Shown: positions 51,822-57,786 of the stretch, one piece after another
Layout: the number at the start of each line of letters is the position of its first letter
Position numbering within the stretch: the first letter of the stretch is position 1
Source: Gammaproteobacteria bacterium Gsub
GTDB lineage: Bacteria > Pseudomonadota > Gammaproteobacteria > PS1 > Pseudothioglobaceae
Direction of reading: 5' to 3'
Length of the DNA: 64,000 bases
NCBI GenBank assembly: GCA_002007405.1
Contig: JYIN01000002.1
Span: 1 to 64,000 of the forward strand
Program-made: the position numbers and the translations under genes
The notes under the pieces: model-generated
The model's database searches: none
What the model was told of the DNA's origin: nothing
The model's input: the letters and a program-made list of their open reading frames with translations, nothing else

Positions 51822-54635
51822 TTACAAATCATAAAATTTCTTAATATGTTGCATAATTTTATCAAGTACGCTTGGAATAATCTTCCTGCGTTCAAGTAAT
51901 TTGTATTTGCCTTTTAATGTCTTGGATATATCATCATTAAGTGGTTTACGCTGGTCATATAGATAAGTTTCTATAACACGCTTAACCTCATTCTCGTGTA
52001 GATTTTCCTCTTTACAAAGCTTGCCAAATTCGTTTGCTTTTTGCTCTTCCCAGAATGTTTCAAACTCATCATCTATACTATCAGAACTCACGCCTTCAAG
52101 CTGAGAATCAATAAACGCCATAATCAACGCACGCTTTGAGCGCAAGTGCTCTTGTCCGTCAATGATTGTAATAATGCGTTTCTTAAACTCATCCCTCTTT
52201 GACTCACTCATATCAACATAACTTGCAAGCAGTTTTAAGATATAAGCAACATTAATCTCATCTCTTTGAATCAGCTCAAGCTCAAAATCTACCTCATCAA
52301 GAATTGACACCTTTTCACTGGTTTGCTCGCGCTTAACTCGTTCATACAAATCCAAATACTTAGACTTATAATCCTCAAACATCTGCTCACTCATTGACAG
52401 GTGTGAATAATCAAAGTCACTAAATCCTGTTAGGATATTACGAATACGCATCAACTCTCTGAAGGCTTTAATAAACTCTAGTTGCTGATTCTCATCAATC
52501 AAACCATCTACACTACTCACACTTGGTGCGATATTTATTAACTCAAGGAATGCTTTATTAAACTGCTCCACATATTCATCATAAGGCTTCATCAGAATAA
52601 TATCTTTAGCATCCTTGTTTGAGAATAGAGCTATCGCCTCATCGGTATTCTTCTTTAGATTTCTAAAGCTAACAATATTGCCTTGTGACTTTTTCTCATT
52701 CACAATTCTGTTAGTGCGTGAAAATGCTTGAATCAGTCCGTGATATTTTAGATTCTTATCAACATACAAGGTATTGAGTGTCGGTGAATCAAACCCTGTT
52801 AGGAACATATTCACCACCAACAGTATGTCTATCTCTCGGTTTTTAACCTTCTTGGATATATCGTTGTAGTAGTTGTAATAACTTTTTGAATCTTTAGTGG
52901 TAAAACTTGTGCCAAAAGTCTGGTTATAATCTTGGATATAACCCTCTAATTTATCCCTTGAATGTTGGTTAATATGTGCCTCATCCACCACAGCGCCATC
53001 GCCCTCATAAATGCCATTCGCATCTTTGTCATCTTCGTTCATACTATAACTAAAAATAGCGGCAATCTTTAAGTTATGCTCTTTGGCTTTAAACCGCTCG
53101 TAATACTTAGTAAGGGTATCAATTGAACTGAGTGCAAACATCGCGTTAAATTCCCTTGCGTGCGTCTTACGGTTATGATTGGCAAGGATATAATCAGTTA
53201 TCTTCTCAAGTCGCTCGTCAGACTCCAACAACTCTTTAATATCAATATTCTCAACTTCAATATCAACATAGTTTTTACTTTCTTCGCGTTCTTTATACTT
53301 GCCCACATATTCAATTGAAAACTTCAAAACATTCTCATCTTTAATCGCATTAGTAATCACATACCTATGCAGGCAATCATCAAACAGCTCAGCAGTGGTG
53401 CGCTTACCCATCTTATTGCCAACGGCATTCTCACCAAAGATAGGCGTGCCTGTAAAACCAATCATCTGATTGTTGTTAAAAAACTTGGTAATGTTTAAGT
53501 GCGTCTGCCCAAACTGTGAGCGGTGGCACTCATCAAAGATAAATATAATCCTCTTATCACGCATCCCTGCCATCGTCTTTAGATAACGCTCACGACTAAT
53601 GGCATTGTTGAGTTTTTGAATGGTGGTTACAATCAGCTTAGTGTCATCCCCAAACTGCTTAACCAAAGCATTGGTATTAGATGTAGCGTCCACTGAGCCA
53701 TCGTAGAAGCTATTAAATTCTTTAGTAGTTTGATAATCAAGGTCTTTTCTATCCACCACAAATACCACCTTATGAACCTGTGGCAGATTCATTAACACTT
53801 GTGAAGCCTTAAATGAGGTGAGTGTCTTGCCTGAGCCTGTGGTGTGCCAAATATAGCCATTCTTATTGCTATTGGTTATGCGACTCACAATCGCCTCAGT
53901 CGCAAAATACTGATACGGTCTTAGCACCATTAGTATCTTTGGCACTTCAGCCAGCACAATATATTTACATATCATCTTAGACAAGTGACAACGCTCTAAG
54001 AAACTATCAGTAAACGCTTTTAAATCAGTAATGTTGTTGTTATCTTTATCTGCCCAAAAAAAGGTTTGCTTAAATGATTGTTTTTTGTTATTAGCGTAGT
54101 ATTTAGTATTAACCCCATTACTAATGACAAAGATTTGAATATAGTTAAACAGTGCCGAGTTAAAACCATACGAATGTTTTTGATAACGATTAGTCTGGTT
54201 AAAAGCCTTTTTTAATTCAGTGCCTGGTTTTTTAAGCTCAATTTGAACCAGTGGCAAACCATTGATTAGAATAGTCACATCATAACGATTCTTATAACTC
54301 CCCTCAATGGTTATTTGATTCGTAACTTGAAACAGATTCTGACACCAATGCTCAGTATCTAAAAACTCAATCCATTTACTTGTGCCATCATCACAATCAA
54401 GAACAAACTTATCTCTTAAGGCTTTGGCTTTATCAAACACTGTGCCTTTTTGCAGGTGATTGGTGATGCGTTTAAATTCTTTATCACTAAAGGTGGTTTT
54501 GTTATGCTTCTCTAATTGGGATTTAAGATTGGCAAGTAAAGCCACCTCATCAGGAACAATAACTCGCTCATACTCTAACGACTCAAGCTGCTTAATCAGT
54601 TGGCTTTCAAGTGCTTGTTCGCTTTGGGTTGTCAT
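51822..54635 (-). CDS. hsdR: Type I restriction enzyme R subunit
   Basis: A 937-residue motor-nuclease subunit. The N-terminal PD-ExK nuclease has Asp119 and Glu133-Leu-Lys135 (DVTILIN then IELKK). The SF2 translocase has Walker A TTGSGKT (265-271), DECH box (368-371) and later QAFSRTNR. The C-terminal part is the helical domain binding the methylase. It overlaps fic by four bases upstream and ends 17 bp before ftsL. All motifs look intact. Confidence 0.96.
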   Translation of the reverse strand: MTTQSEQALESQLIKQLESLEYERVIVPDEVALLANLKSQLEKHNKTTFSDKEFKRITNHLQKGTVFDKAKALRDKFVLDCDDGTSKWIEFLDTEHWCQNLFQVTNQITIEGSYKNRYDVTILINGLPLVQIELKKPGTELKKAFNQTNRYQKHSYGFNSALFNYIQIFVISNGVNTKYYANNKKQSFKQTFFWADKDNNNITDLKAFTDSFLERCHLSKMICKYIVLAEVPKILMVLRPYQYFATEAIVSRITNSNKNGYIWHTTGSGKTLTSFKASQVLMNLPQVHKVVFVVDRKDLDYQTTKEFNSFYDGSVDATSNTNALVKQFGDDTKLIVTTIQKLNNAISRERYLKTMAGMRDKRIIFIFDECHRSQFGQTHLNITKFFNNNQMIGFTGTPIFGENAVGNKMGKRTTAELFDDCLHRYVITNAIKDENVLKFSIEYVGKYKEREESKNYVDIEVENIDIKELLESDERLEKITDYILANHNRKTHAREFNAMFALSSIDTLTKYYERFKAKEHNLKIAAIFSYSMNEDDKDANGIYEGDGAVVDEAHINQHSRDKLEGYIQDYNQTFGTSFTTKDSKSYYNYYNDISKKVKNREIDILLVVNMFLTGFDSPTLNTLYVDKNLKYHGLIQAFSRTNRIVNEKKSQGNIVSFRNLKKNTDEAIALFSNKDAKDIILMKPYDEYVEQFNKAFLELINIAPSVSSVDGLIDENQQLEFIKAFRELMRIRNILTGFSDFDYSHLSMSEQMFEDYKSKYLDLYERVKREQTSEKVSILDEVDFELELIQRDEINVAYILKLLASYVDMSESKRDEFKKRIITIIDGQEHLRSKRALIMAFIDSQLEGVSSDSIDDEFETFWEEQKANEFGKLCKEENLHENEVKRVIETYLYDQRKPLNDDISKTLKGKYKLLERRKIIPSVLDKIMQHIKKFYDL

Positions 54636-55789
54636 TCGTTCTTATTCAAAAAATCAGCAACAAAACCATTCTCATCAAGTGCTTTAATTATTCCTCTAAG
54701 AATTGGACTGTTATAAAAATTGATTGTGTAAATCCTACCGCCTTTCTTAATAGCTTTAACTAATCTGTTTTGTTTGAGTTTATTCATCATTCGTGTTTTT
54801 TGCGCAGAGCTGTTTATACCAAATATGTCAAACTCTTTAGACTGAATAGTCATTTTTTCTTGTTTCACTAAATATGACAAAATGTTGTACTCTAATTGAT
54901 TAATAATCTGCCTATCTAGTGTAAATCTCAACGCTGGTAATAATAATTTATCTCTCACATAGCTTTCATTTAACAAGGTATCAATCTTTTTAAATTCATT
55001 TTTTAACCCACTTAAAAAATACTCAGCCCAATTCAAAATATCCTTATCATTAAGGCTGTCTGCTATTGATAAATTGTCATAATACGCATCTCTATCGCCA
55101 TAAAACACCGCAGATGGATTGAGTATTCTGCCTTGTTTAACATTAAAACCTAATTTAATCAACAATACATAATCTAATAGCCTAATCATTCTGCCATTAC
55201 CGTTGTCAAATGGATGAATATAAGCACAACGATGATGAGCAATAGCCACCATGAGTAATTGATTTTGGGTGTTATGATAGCGATTAATCAACTCAATAAA
55301 TTCGTCAAAATTATCCTGAAGAGCAATAAAATCTGGCGGCGTATGGTCTGATTTTTTAATTTGGACATTGTGTTTTCTTAATTCTCCTGGATTTTTAGAA
55401 CCTTCTCCATTAGGCGGTGGGGTTAGACCCATAACAACAATTTGATGCAAATTAGAGAGATAAGCACGATCAATTTTCGTTGTCTCATCGGTATGATTTT
55501 CAATAAAATCAATTGCACTTCGCAAGTTGCCAATCTCAGTTTGTTGTTCGTCATTCACAATAGGTTTTTCAATAATTTGCTCAACATATTCTGCAAGCGT
55601 TGTATGATTGCCTTCAATACGAGATGAACCTAGTGTTTCCAACATCTGAAAAATATCTTTTAGTTGAAAGAAAATATCACTTTGAATAGTCGAATATAAT
55701 CGTTTGGTTCTAATTTGTTCAAGTTCTAAAATCAGGCTGGTTAGCTGACTATTCCATTGAGGACTTGGTAGGATAATTTTAGTTTGCAT
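54632..55789 (-). CDS. Fic-family AMPylase-type protein with inhibitory motif
   Basis: A 385-residue protein. The N-terminal Fic_N region contains the auto-inhibitory motif SSRIEGN (Ser55, Glu59), and the catalytic loop is HPFDNGNGRMIR (residues 192-203), complete with His, Gly and Arg. A C-terminal winged-helix-like segment (LSYLVKQEKMTIQSKEF) follows, as in many type I-linked Fic proteins. Fic proteins transfer AMP to target proteins; here the target is unknown. It is translationally coupled to hsdR. Confidence 0.92.
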   Translation of the reverse strand: MQTKIILPSPQWNSQLTSLILELEQIRTKRLYSTIQSDIFFQLKDIFQMLETLGSSRIEGNHTTLAEYVEQIIEKPIVNDEQQTEIGNLRSAIDFIENHTDETTKIDRAYLSNLHQIVVMGLTPPPNGEGSKNPGELRKHNVQIKKSDHTPPDFIALQDNFDEFIELINRYHNTQNQLLMVAIAHHRCAYIHPFDNGNGRMIRLLDYVLLIKLGFNVKQGRILNPSAVFYGDRDAYYDNLSIADSLNDKDILNWAEYFLSGLKNEFKKIDTLLNESYVRDKLLLPALRFTLDRQIINQLEYNILSYLVKQEKMTIQSKEFDIFGINSSAQKTRMMNKLKQNRLVKAIKKGGRIYTINFYNSPILRGIIKALDENGFVADFLNKNE

Positions 55790-55904: not shown

Positions 55905-57392
55905 TTACACAAACATCTGCTGAAGCAGTGCCTTTTTAAATTGTTTGGATTTATCCAACTGCTTACCCACTTGTCCAATTTTGCCGTCAATGGAGGATAG
56001 GAAGTTGGCGATTTTGGTTTGTTCTTCAAGAGCTGGTAATTTAACTTTAAAGTTTGATATTTCACCCTTTTGTATATTTGGCAAACCCGACCCAACTCTC
56101 AATCTCATAATTTGTAACTCATTAAACTTGAGATATTGATAAAGATAGTTCACATTTATACACTTCTTTAATTCTTGCAAGGAATAATTGTGTCCACCTG
56201 ACCAAAACCTAGTAGCAACAAAATTTACAAAACCGCAAGAATTACCGCCTTCGCTAATTGTTATAGTGCTTGCTTCTGTATTCCAATCAGTTGTATATCC
56301 TGAAGGATTAATACCGCCATTTAAAGCAGGATAGTCTCCTTCATCAGTTAAATGCTCTTTATTAAGTTGCGAGCCTTTTTTGATTACACATTGACTTGAC
56401 AACTTCTTATCTTTCCAATCAGGAAACTCACACCCATCATCCGCTTTAAAACGAATGGCTTGGCTAAAGATTAGTTGCATTAAGCCTTTTTTCCACGAGC
56501 CAAGCAGCTCTTGTTTTTTACTTAGTTGCTCAATTTTGTTATCAACTGCGCTTAGGAATGCTGCGATTTTTTGTTGTTCTGGTTTGGTTGGGAAGTTAAT
56601 CTTAAACTTTTCTACAGTCTTTACATTTAGATTAGGGACTCCGCCACCCTGAAACACTCCTTTTTTCGCTTGTGTTTTTCCAATTGGCGAATTTAGTAAA
56701 AACTTTAAAAAGGTATTATCAAGCTTTTGAGATGCCCTTATATGCGTAAGACTAACATAAACACCATAATCACCTTCAAAAGGAAATATAGCAGCATTAC
56801 CGTATCCAGCACCCACGCGACTATAAAGAATATCACCCTTTAATAACTTGGCGTTCTTACTTATTTTTTTATAATAGTCTTCACTAATGAAATTATATTT
56901 ATCCATCAATATCTTGCCAGTTGGTGTGACATTTTGAGAAGATAAAAATGTTATACCGCTATCAACATATTTCGGAGTGGCTGCTATTCCACACCTCAAA
57001 ATATCTGTAAGGTTTAATAAAATATCGGTTAGTAAAGGCTGGTCAAACTCAGGAAACCTTAACTGTGGCACTTTGGGTTTTGCCTTAAAGGGAAACAGTG
57101 CTTTTTTTTGATTGATAATGTTTTTAAAATACGGCTCAATCCTGTTGATGTCCAATACATCCACTGTGTAGGGCAGGTCTGATTCAGTAAAATCATCTTT
57201 TAACTTGGTGATGAGCTGTCTTGTATCTGTGTTTGGGCAGTCTATTGCCAAATCTAGATCAGAATAATTTTGTGATTGATTTTTTGCCCGAGAGCCAAAT
57301 ACCCATACTTTACAATCATTCGATAGGTGATTTTGCAAAATATCGGCAACAATGCTAAATTCTTGTGGGCTAATGTCAAAATTCAGTTTCAT
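55905..57392 (-). CDS. hsdS: MNT nucleotidyltransferase fused to type I specificity subunit HsdS
   Basis: A 495-residue fusion. Residues 1-102 are a minimal nucleotidyltransferase (MNT) domain with GSRAKNQ (Gly33-Ser34) and SDLDLAID (Asp45, Asp47), and a third acidic position near TVDVLD (Asp78). From about residue 105 the typical HsdS start VPQLRFPEF begins, with two target-recognition domains, each followed by the conserved helical repeat (PEQQKIAAFLSAVDNKI and EEQTKIANFLSSIDGKI). The MNT coding start overlaps the upstream HEPN-type gene by 17 bp, as in HEPN-MNT toxin-antitoxin pairs. The frame is continuous with no sign of an assembly join. Confidence 0.9.
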   Translation of the reverse strand: MKLNFDISPQEFSIVADILQNHLSNDCKVWVFGSRAKNQSQNYSDLDLAIDCPNTDTRQLITKLKDDFTESDLPYTVDVLDINRIEPYFKNIINQKKALFPFKAKPKVPQLRFPEFDQPLLTDILLNLTDILRCGIAATPKYVDSGITFLSSQNVTPTGKILMDKYNFISEDYYKKISKNAKLLKGDILYSRVGAGYGNAAIFPFEGDYGVYVSLTHIRASQKLDNTFLKFLLNSPIGKTQAKKGVFQGGGVPNLNVKTVEKFKINFPTKPEQQKIAAFLSAVDNKIEQLSKKQELLGSWKKGLMQLIFSQAIRFKADDGCEFPDWKDKKLSSQCVIKKGSQLNKEHLTDEGDYPALNGGINPSGYTTDWNTEASTITISEGGNSCGFVNFVATRFWSGGHNYSLQELKKCINVNYLYQYLKFNELQIMRLRVGSGLPNIQKGEISNFKVKLPALEEQTKIANFLSSIDGKIGQVGKQLDKSKQFKKALLQQMFV

Positions 57393-57786
57393 AATACGCT
57401 GCTAATTGCTCAAAAAAATGTTCAAGCTCTGCTAAAAAACTGGGGATTTGCTGTAATATTTGAATGGCAATATTTTCATCATAGCCATAAGAGGTGGCGT
57501 CACGGCTGCGTTTATAGTTAGCCCAACTATCCCAGCTGTGTAATAAAACGCCTTTTTTTGCGCCCAATCTAATCACATCTGCAAGAGACATATCAATACC
57601 GTCTTCGCCGATATTTTTTAAATGCCTAATGAGTATTTTCTTAGAAAAGTCATAACAATACTCAAAGCGTTGAATACATGAATCTCTTACAAAAGTATTG
57701 CTCTCATCTTTTGCATACTCGTCTAGTGCTTCTTTAAATGTTTTTATTGCTCTTAAAAAAACAGTTAAATCCAGTTTTTCATCCAT
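57376..57786 (-). CDS. HEPN-type HI0074-like nucleotidyltransferase-partner protein
   Basis: A 136-residue all-helical protein of the HI0074/nucleotidyltransferase substrate-binding family (HEPN superfamily). Family features include FVRDSCIQRFEYCYDFSKK and DEYAKDES. The usual RX4HXY catalytic/AMPylation motif appears as RDATSYGY: Arg95, then Tyr100 where His is expected, then Tyr102. A single C-to-T change in a CAT codon would give this TAT. It lies between hsdM (10 bp gap) and the MNT-HsdS fusion (17 bp overlap), so the HEPN-MNT pair is embedded in the restriction operon. Confidence 0.88.
   Translation of the reverse strand: MDEKLDLTVFLRAIKTFKEALDEYAKDESNTFVRDSCIQRFEYCYDFSKKILIRHLKNIGEDGIDMSLADVIRLGAKKGVLLHSWDSWANYKRSRDATSYGYDENIAIQILQQIPSFLAELEHFFEQLAAYYETEF

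Follow-up and report, generated by a model that had tools for sequence, protein, structure and literature searches.

The closest described systems are the class I HEPN/MNT (type VII, HepT-MntA) toxin-antitoxin pairs, such as Shewanella SO_3166-3165, the Legionella pair, and H. influenzae HI0074-HI0073. In the unfused pair, MntA adenylylates the tyrosine of the RX4HXY motif and so silences the RNase (PMC7641770). In the Legionella system, one MNT binds a tetramer of HEPN, the HEPN is AMPylated on Tyr105, and the AMPylation depends on the ATP level (PMC11586414). HEPN proteins are also linked to restriction-modification (R-M) systems. A 2013 survey places the R-M-linked HEPN proteins in 16 clades and describes HEPN-R-M neighbourhoods as well as HEPN domains fused to nucleases, helicases, and ATPases (PMC3710099). 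PrrC is a HEPN-fold RNase whose gene lies within a type I operon; the nuclease stays silent inside the EcoprrI type I complex until phage T4 Stp inhibits that complex and so frees it (PMC3710099; PMC3874165; PMC12707154).

We analysed a 64,000-nucleotide stretch of the genome of Gammaproteobacteria bacterium Gsub, here called the window. Its minus strand carries an intact type I operon in the order hsdM, HEPN, MNT::HsdS, Fic, and hsdR (Table 1). All five genes were identified by Pfam, and NCBIfam and PADLOC agree wherever they have models. The hsdM product carries the NPPF motif, and both the nuclease and the helicase domains were found in hsdR. The operon therefore has hsdM, hsdS, and hsdR with their catalytic domains, as expected of a type I R-M system. 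It also has an adjoining HEPN of the PF08780/PF01934 type and MNT of the PF01909 type, and the 17-bp overlap between their frames, which the first-pass annotation had reported for an HI0074/HEPN-type gene and the next frame, was confirmed. The families are those of the type VII systems (PF08780 with PF01909/PF18765), and the R-M-linked HEPN proteins of the 2013 survey likewise lie within R-M operons (PMC3710099). The type VII MNT, however, is a free protein of about 100 residues. In the window, a class I HEPN/MNT module of the HI0074/HI0073 type is inserted between hsdM and hsdS, and the MNT is the N-terminal domain of HsdS.

Table 1. Features of the type I operon in the window
Feature	Position	Strand	Evidence
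hsdM, type I DNA methyltransferase, 520 aa	57797..59359	-	PF02384 7.4e-115; TIGR00497 3.1e-143 (above cut-off)
HEPN, HI0074 family, 136 aa, predicted toxin	57376..57786	-	PF08780 9.9e-24; TIGR01987 4e-16 (above cut-off)
Overlap of HEPN and MNT::HsdS frames, 17 bp	57376..57392	-	
MNT::HsdS fusion, single unbroken 495-aa frame	55905..57392	-	
MNT (HI0073-type) nucleotidyltransferase domain, fusion residues 1-105	57078..57392	-	PF18765, PF01909; 1no5
HsdS part of fusion, residues 108-495	55905..57071	-	PF01420 1.9e-39 in all, two stretches; AlphaFold2 model
Fic/DOC family AMP-transferase gene, HPFDNGNGR	54632..55789	-	PF02661 2.1e-13; SoFic 4.6e-37
hsdR, EcoR124-type, 937 aa	51822..54635	-	PF12008 8.7e-66; PF04313 2.5e-40; TIGR00348 5.7e-150

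The Fic gene occupies the hsdS-hsdR slot, as in other type I R-M systems that carry Fic, RloC-like, or other cargo. The content of this slot is variable and differs among relatives, where Fic is no constant part, whereas the HEPN-MNT module sits in the hsdM-hsdS slot. Fic is therefore probably an accessory gene. Its product has an SSRIEGN stretch that resembles the Fic inhibitory motif. The same slot holds an AAA_13 gene (RloC/PrrC-like) at one related locus (L080) and various other genes elsewhere. The same genome (G000) encodes two other Methylase_S proteins, at C7:63555-64010 (797-aa frame) and C10:32224-33339 (511-aa frame).

The fusion is a single reading frame that joins an intact MNT to a full two-TRD HsdS, as first proposed from the letters alone. 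Residues 25-100 match Polbeta PF18765 (3.3e-11) and NTP_transf_2 PF01909 (1.1e-8), and two Methylase_S TRDs lie C-terminal to them; the HsdS part contains the two TRDs and two central coiled regions. The junction is sharp, because similarity to plain HsdS proteins starts at residue 108. We built an AlphaFold2 model from an alignment of 27 fusions (mean pLDDT of 83.9). The MNT has a pLDDT of about 90, confidence dips at residues 106-109, and the HsdS is complete. In the model, the MNT and the two-TRD HsdS are separate folds with a short loose linker between them. Foldseek matched the HsdS part to the solved HsdS structures 1yf2 (E of 8.5e-20) and 1ydx. It matched the MNT part to HI0073 (1no5; TM of 0.83, 40% identity; 2.5e-14 by sequence), and also to the Legionella MNT antitoxin 8xeo and the HEPN-MNT complex 8xeh. 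No conserved start with a Shine-Dalgarno sequence that would yield free HsdS was found at the junction. Codon 108 in the window is GTG, preceded by a weak AAGG, and some free HsdS may be made from it. An assembly or frameshift artefact is ruled out by the intact frame in the window and by the recurrence of the fusion in isolates and on a closed plasmid.

The MNT retains its catalytic residues (G33, S34, D45, D47, and D78) and with them the GSX10DXD motif that it shares with the type VII antitoxins. The GS pair and the three aspartates are likewise intact in all 39 other fusions. The HEPN shares with type VII toxins the AMPylation-site tyrosine (Tyr102) and also keeps R95. However, its motif reads RDATSYGY (R95-DATS-Y100-G-Y102), so that the motif histidine of type VII HEPN proteins is replaced by Tyr100 (codon 57489-57487) and RX4HXY is incomplete. 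Among the 38 other fused loci that have a HEPN, R-X4-H is kept at all 38 and the AMPylation tyrosine at 37, the remaining one having an aspartate; the full RX4HXY is thus present at 37 of the 38. The window HEPN also has Q39 and E42, the counterparts of the Legionella Mg-site residues Q44/E47 in helix 2. A Q-E pair occupies this site in 35 of the 38 HEPN proteins at fused loci, and a K-E pair in the remaining three.

In Shewanella HepT, a change of the motif arginine or histidine abolishes toxicity (PMC4621449). In the Legionella HEPN, by contrast, R98A and H103A have a negligible effect, and the active site is the Mg site Q44/E47 (PMC11586414). The severity of the histidine loss in the window therefore depends on which of these two homologues the window HEPN resembles. 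In sequence comparison with solved structures, it matched HI0074 (1jog, E of 1.3e-9) and, more weakly, the Legionella HEPN (8xdj, E of 2.3e-4). As judged from these residues, the toxin of the window may have an altered activity or none. The assignment to the HI0074 family made in the first-pass annotation was borne out, but the change of the motif histidine to Tyr100 had been overlooked there. Because this histidine is missing, we left the window copy out of the standard class I HEPN/MNT group and counted its relatives in. At one related locus (L067:3040-5457), two tandem HEPN genes precede a single MNT::HsdS; the first HEPN reads RGKSNYTYD and has no histidine at the motif position, and the second has it.

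To find other fusions, we searched 193 relatives for the MNT domain, and three more long-frame fusions turned up in distant class members. A set of 398 genomes, sampled evenly across the phylum, added 12 further genomes with long MNT frames. We also scanned genome contigs of 84,980 species with a four-row MNT alignment and took the best 80 loci. After annotation of these loci and of the regions fetched, and with duplicates dropped, we counted at least 39 fusions besides the window: 36 MNT::HsdS, two MNT::HsdR, and one MNT::HsdM. Ten fused loci were checked by Pfam. The fusions span Pseudomonadota, Campylobacterota, and Chloroflexota, with hosts that include Pseudomonas sp. 8Z, Nitrosomonas mobilis, Rhodoferax antarcticus, an Arcobacter MAG (Campylobacterota), and a Chloroflexota MAG. 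Zymomonas mobilis ATCC 10988 has a complete copy of the operon on pZMOB01, a closed plasmid of 32 kb, and the HEPN of that copy has the intact motif. The fusion encoded there (WP_014466389.1) is labelled in RefSeq merely as "restriction endonuclease subunit S", so this class of fusion is easy to overlook.

A HEPN gene lies immediately upstream of the fusion in 38 of the 39, which largely answers in the affirmative the question raised in the first-pass annotation, whether MNT-HsdS proteins always have a HEPN gene beside them. The complete order hsdM-HEPN-MNT::HsdS-hsdR occurs within 6.5 kb in 26 of the 39. At the remaining locus (L074), only the last HEPN residues are found upstream of the fusion. 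We rejected it as a HEPN-less counter-example, since this C-terminal remnant indicates that the HEPN was lost.

The two MNT::HsdR fusions belong to Marinobacterium ramblicola (L087) and Marinomonas arctica (L090), and both species have an MNT::HsdS as well, accompanied by a HEPN of its own. At these loci (L087:6583-12763 and L090:6579-13053), the operon holds two HEPN-MNT modules, and the second MNT is at the HsdR N terminus. A Magnetococcales locus (L107:3193-6882) encodes HEPN, MNT::HsdM, HEPN, and MNT::HsdS in one operon, with the last HsdS truncated. Three further loci showed other rearrangements. At L073:1-1285, an MNT::HsdS has its MNT tail (SDLPFKVDVVDWATT...) repeated ahead of the HsdS part. 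The 747-aa MNT::HsdS at L079:6199-8442 has an apparent DUF559-like insert between its TRDs, flanked by GPSPxGRG-type repeats. Beside the fused system at L078:2114-4841 are a second hsdM, a diverged HEPN without an MNT, and a split hsdS.

Unfused neighbours exist as well (L082-L084, L127, L147, L150, and Acetobacter plasmids), and the plasmids have the order hsdM-HEPN-MNT-hsdS. Within the window's own family, the distribution of the system is scattered. In the nearest relative there (G051), the MNT is truncated and hsdM is split. We rejected it as proof that HEPN tolerates the loss of MNT, because the split hsdM indicates that the whole operon has decayed. Scans of viral contigs gave no relative among the contigs covered, and spread by viruses is thus without support.

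We then compared fusion frequency at type I loci and elsewhere. Because a first version of this comparison took in loci chosen for their long frames, we redid it on the unselected sample of the best 80 loci. With six cases that were cut by contig ends set aside, the MNT was fused in 28 of 34 cases beside type I genes and in one of 45 elsewhere (Fisher p of 1.8e-14, a guide at most, since the rows are related). Among the 47 non-R-M MNTs with enough downstream sequence, 16 are followed closely by a co-directional gene and are yet unfused. With the control restricted to non-R-M MNTs that have such a gene, the difference held (28/34 versus 1/17, p of 1.5e-7). Some of the unfused non-R-M pairs adjoin housekeeping genes (carB, uvrA, and nuoG). 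The sole fused non-R-M MNT in the sample (L091:2162-3040) has a C-terminal region of about 187 residues with no Pfam match.

The fusion partner is the gene directly downstream of the MNT in every case, and the gene order of HEPN, MNT, and next gene is what makes fusion possible, so that the fusions may in part be a consequence of this order. The high frequency of fusion solely at type I loci calls for a functional link. Since the MNT may be fused to HsdS, to HsdM (L107), or to HsdR (L087 and L090), the tie is to the complex and not to a single gene. In a tree of the MNT domain, which has 100 columns and is poorly resolved, fused and unfused rows are mixed, and well-supported branches force at least four changes. 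A single ancestral fusion inherited throughout is therefore unsupported, within the limits of that tree. Since the two forms switch often, fusion is not essential for function.

These results suggest a restriction enzyme that restrains a toxin and frees it once defence fails. In the mechanism that we propose, the MNT domain, present once per M2S complex because each HsdS carries one, would bind HEPN and AMPylate its conserved tyrosine. The HEPN RNase would be docked on the complex and stay silent as long as the methyltransferase or restriction complex is intact. If the complex were blocked, degraded, or lost, whether through an anti-restriction protein, loss of an hsd gene, or ATP depletion, unmodified HEPN would escape, cleave RNA, and arrest the infected or cured cell. 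We give this explanation as a whole, in which MNT silences HEPN on the restriction complex until the complex fails, about an even chance. In a more specific and more tentative form, AMPylation would proceed solely while MNT::HsdS (or MNT::HsdM or MNT::HsdR) is assembled and ATP is present. The complex would then be an integrity checkpoint whose disabling by phage proteins or ATP depletion brings on abortive arrest, and the two modules in Marinobacterium and Marinomonas would guard HsdS and HsdR separately.

The first-pass annotation had proposed that the antitoxin is tied to the restriction complex, so that disassembly would release the toxin. The tie is supported by a genuine fusion, the nearly constant upstream HEPN, and conserved active sites, but the simple release model is incomplete. 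Because AMPylation is covalent, disassembly could free the toxin only if the complex carried unmodified HEPN, if HEPN were newly made, or if an enzyme removed the AMP. The window Fic is a conceivable partner, but we gave it no weight because Fic is not a constant part of the operon.

The resemblance to a PrrC-type guard would lie in the way of working alone. Both systems have a HEPN-fold RNase gene within a type I operon; silencing by the complex has been shown for PrrC and is inferred here. PrrC has its own ABC ATPase domain, has no antitoxin enzyme, and is encoded apart from hsdS. In the window, by contrast, the antitoxin is a nucleotidyltransferase built covalently into HsdS. The window HEPN is a 136-aa single domain without an ABC ATPase, and the system therefore lies outside the PrrC family.

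Several other explanations have to be weighed against such a guard. The pair could be a selfish addiction module whose antitoxin is fused to HsdS, so that loss of the hsd operon or of hsdS poisons the cell and no phage is sensed. The plasmid-borne cases in Zymomonas and Acetobacter, the scattered distribution in the window's family, and the unfused pairs beside unrelated genes all agree with this. Unfused pairs would serve addiction equally well, however. Because most fusions in the unselected sample are at type I loci and the module stays in the hsdM-hsdS slot, addiction alone seems improbable. A neutral origin would also place the MNT on HsdS: two overlapping genes lost a stop codon, and the MNT rides along while the pair works as if unfused. 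That the MNT is invariably joined to the gene directly downstream, that unfused neighbours exist, and that the MNT tree requires numerous switches are what read-through would produce. It would not readily explain why non-R-M MNTs are nearly all unfused even where a close co-directional gene follows, or why fusions are seen independently with HsdS, HsdM, and HsdR, and we consider it quite improbable.

The remaining alternatives concern the HEPN itself. It could be a substrate-binding or regulatory partner of the MNT instead of a toxin, in which case the pair would modify the restriction enzyme or another target, and the HEPN of the window would serve as a regulatory subunit with no catalytic activity. 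The lost histidine would fit this role, as would the annotation of the family as nucleotidyltransferase substrate-binding protein and the Fic AMP-transferase in the same operon. The HEPN proteins at relatives' fused loci, however, keep R-X4-H without exception and nearly always the Q/E Mg site, which makes such a role very unlikely. Alternatively, the module may be decaying in this species only, with the HEPN inactivated by His100Tyr and the restriction enzyme alone still in use. The substitution is unique, and the nearest family relative is itself damaged. On the other hand, every frame in the window is intact, the MNT active site is kept together with Q39/E42 and Tyr102 of the HEPN, and the histidine is dispensable in the Legionella homologue (PMC11586414). 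We regard decay of the window copy as a real possibility, if still unlikely. Returning to a guard on the restriction complex, the conserved active sites fit a working HEPN/MNT pair tied to that complex, while the activity of the window's own HEPN is uncertain after the His-to-Tyr change.

HEPN genes in R-M operons are already known. In the architecture described here, gene fusion joins a type VII toxin-antitoxin module to a type I system. In the passages searched of the 2013 survey (PMC3710099), we found no mention of a fusion between an MNT and the specificity, methylase, or restriction subunit of a type I system. Nor was such a fusion found in the passages searched of 2009 and 2012 papers, of restriction reviews (PMC12707154 and PMC3874165), and of a 2026 BREX paper. 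The full-text literature searched, with figures, preprints, and most subscription papers outside its reach, contains no description of the architecture, which agrees with the earlier impression that it was undescribed. We regard the architecture as certain, its recurrence as strongly supported, and the mechanism, as argued from the comparisons above, as plausible. A coupling between immunity systems and suicide toxins, in which components of the immune system are themselves the inhibitors, is a long-standing proposal. In the fusions described here, an enzyme recognised as an antitoxin is a physical part of the restriction enzyme, repeatedly and across all three subunits. A single gene fusion, a single toxin, and a single phage anti-restriction protein would thus suffice to test the coupling of immunity to suicide directly.
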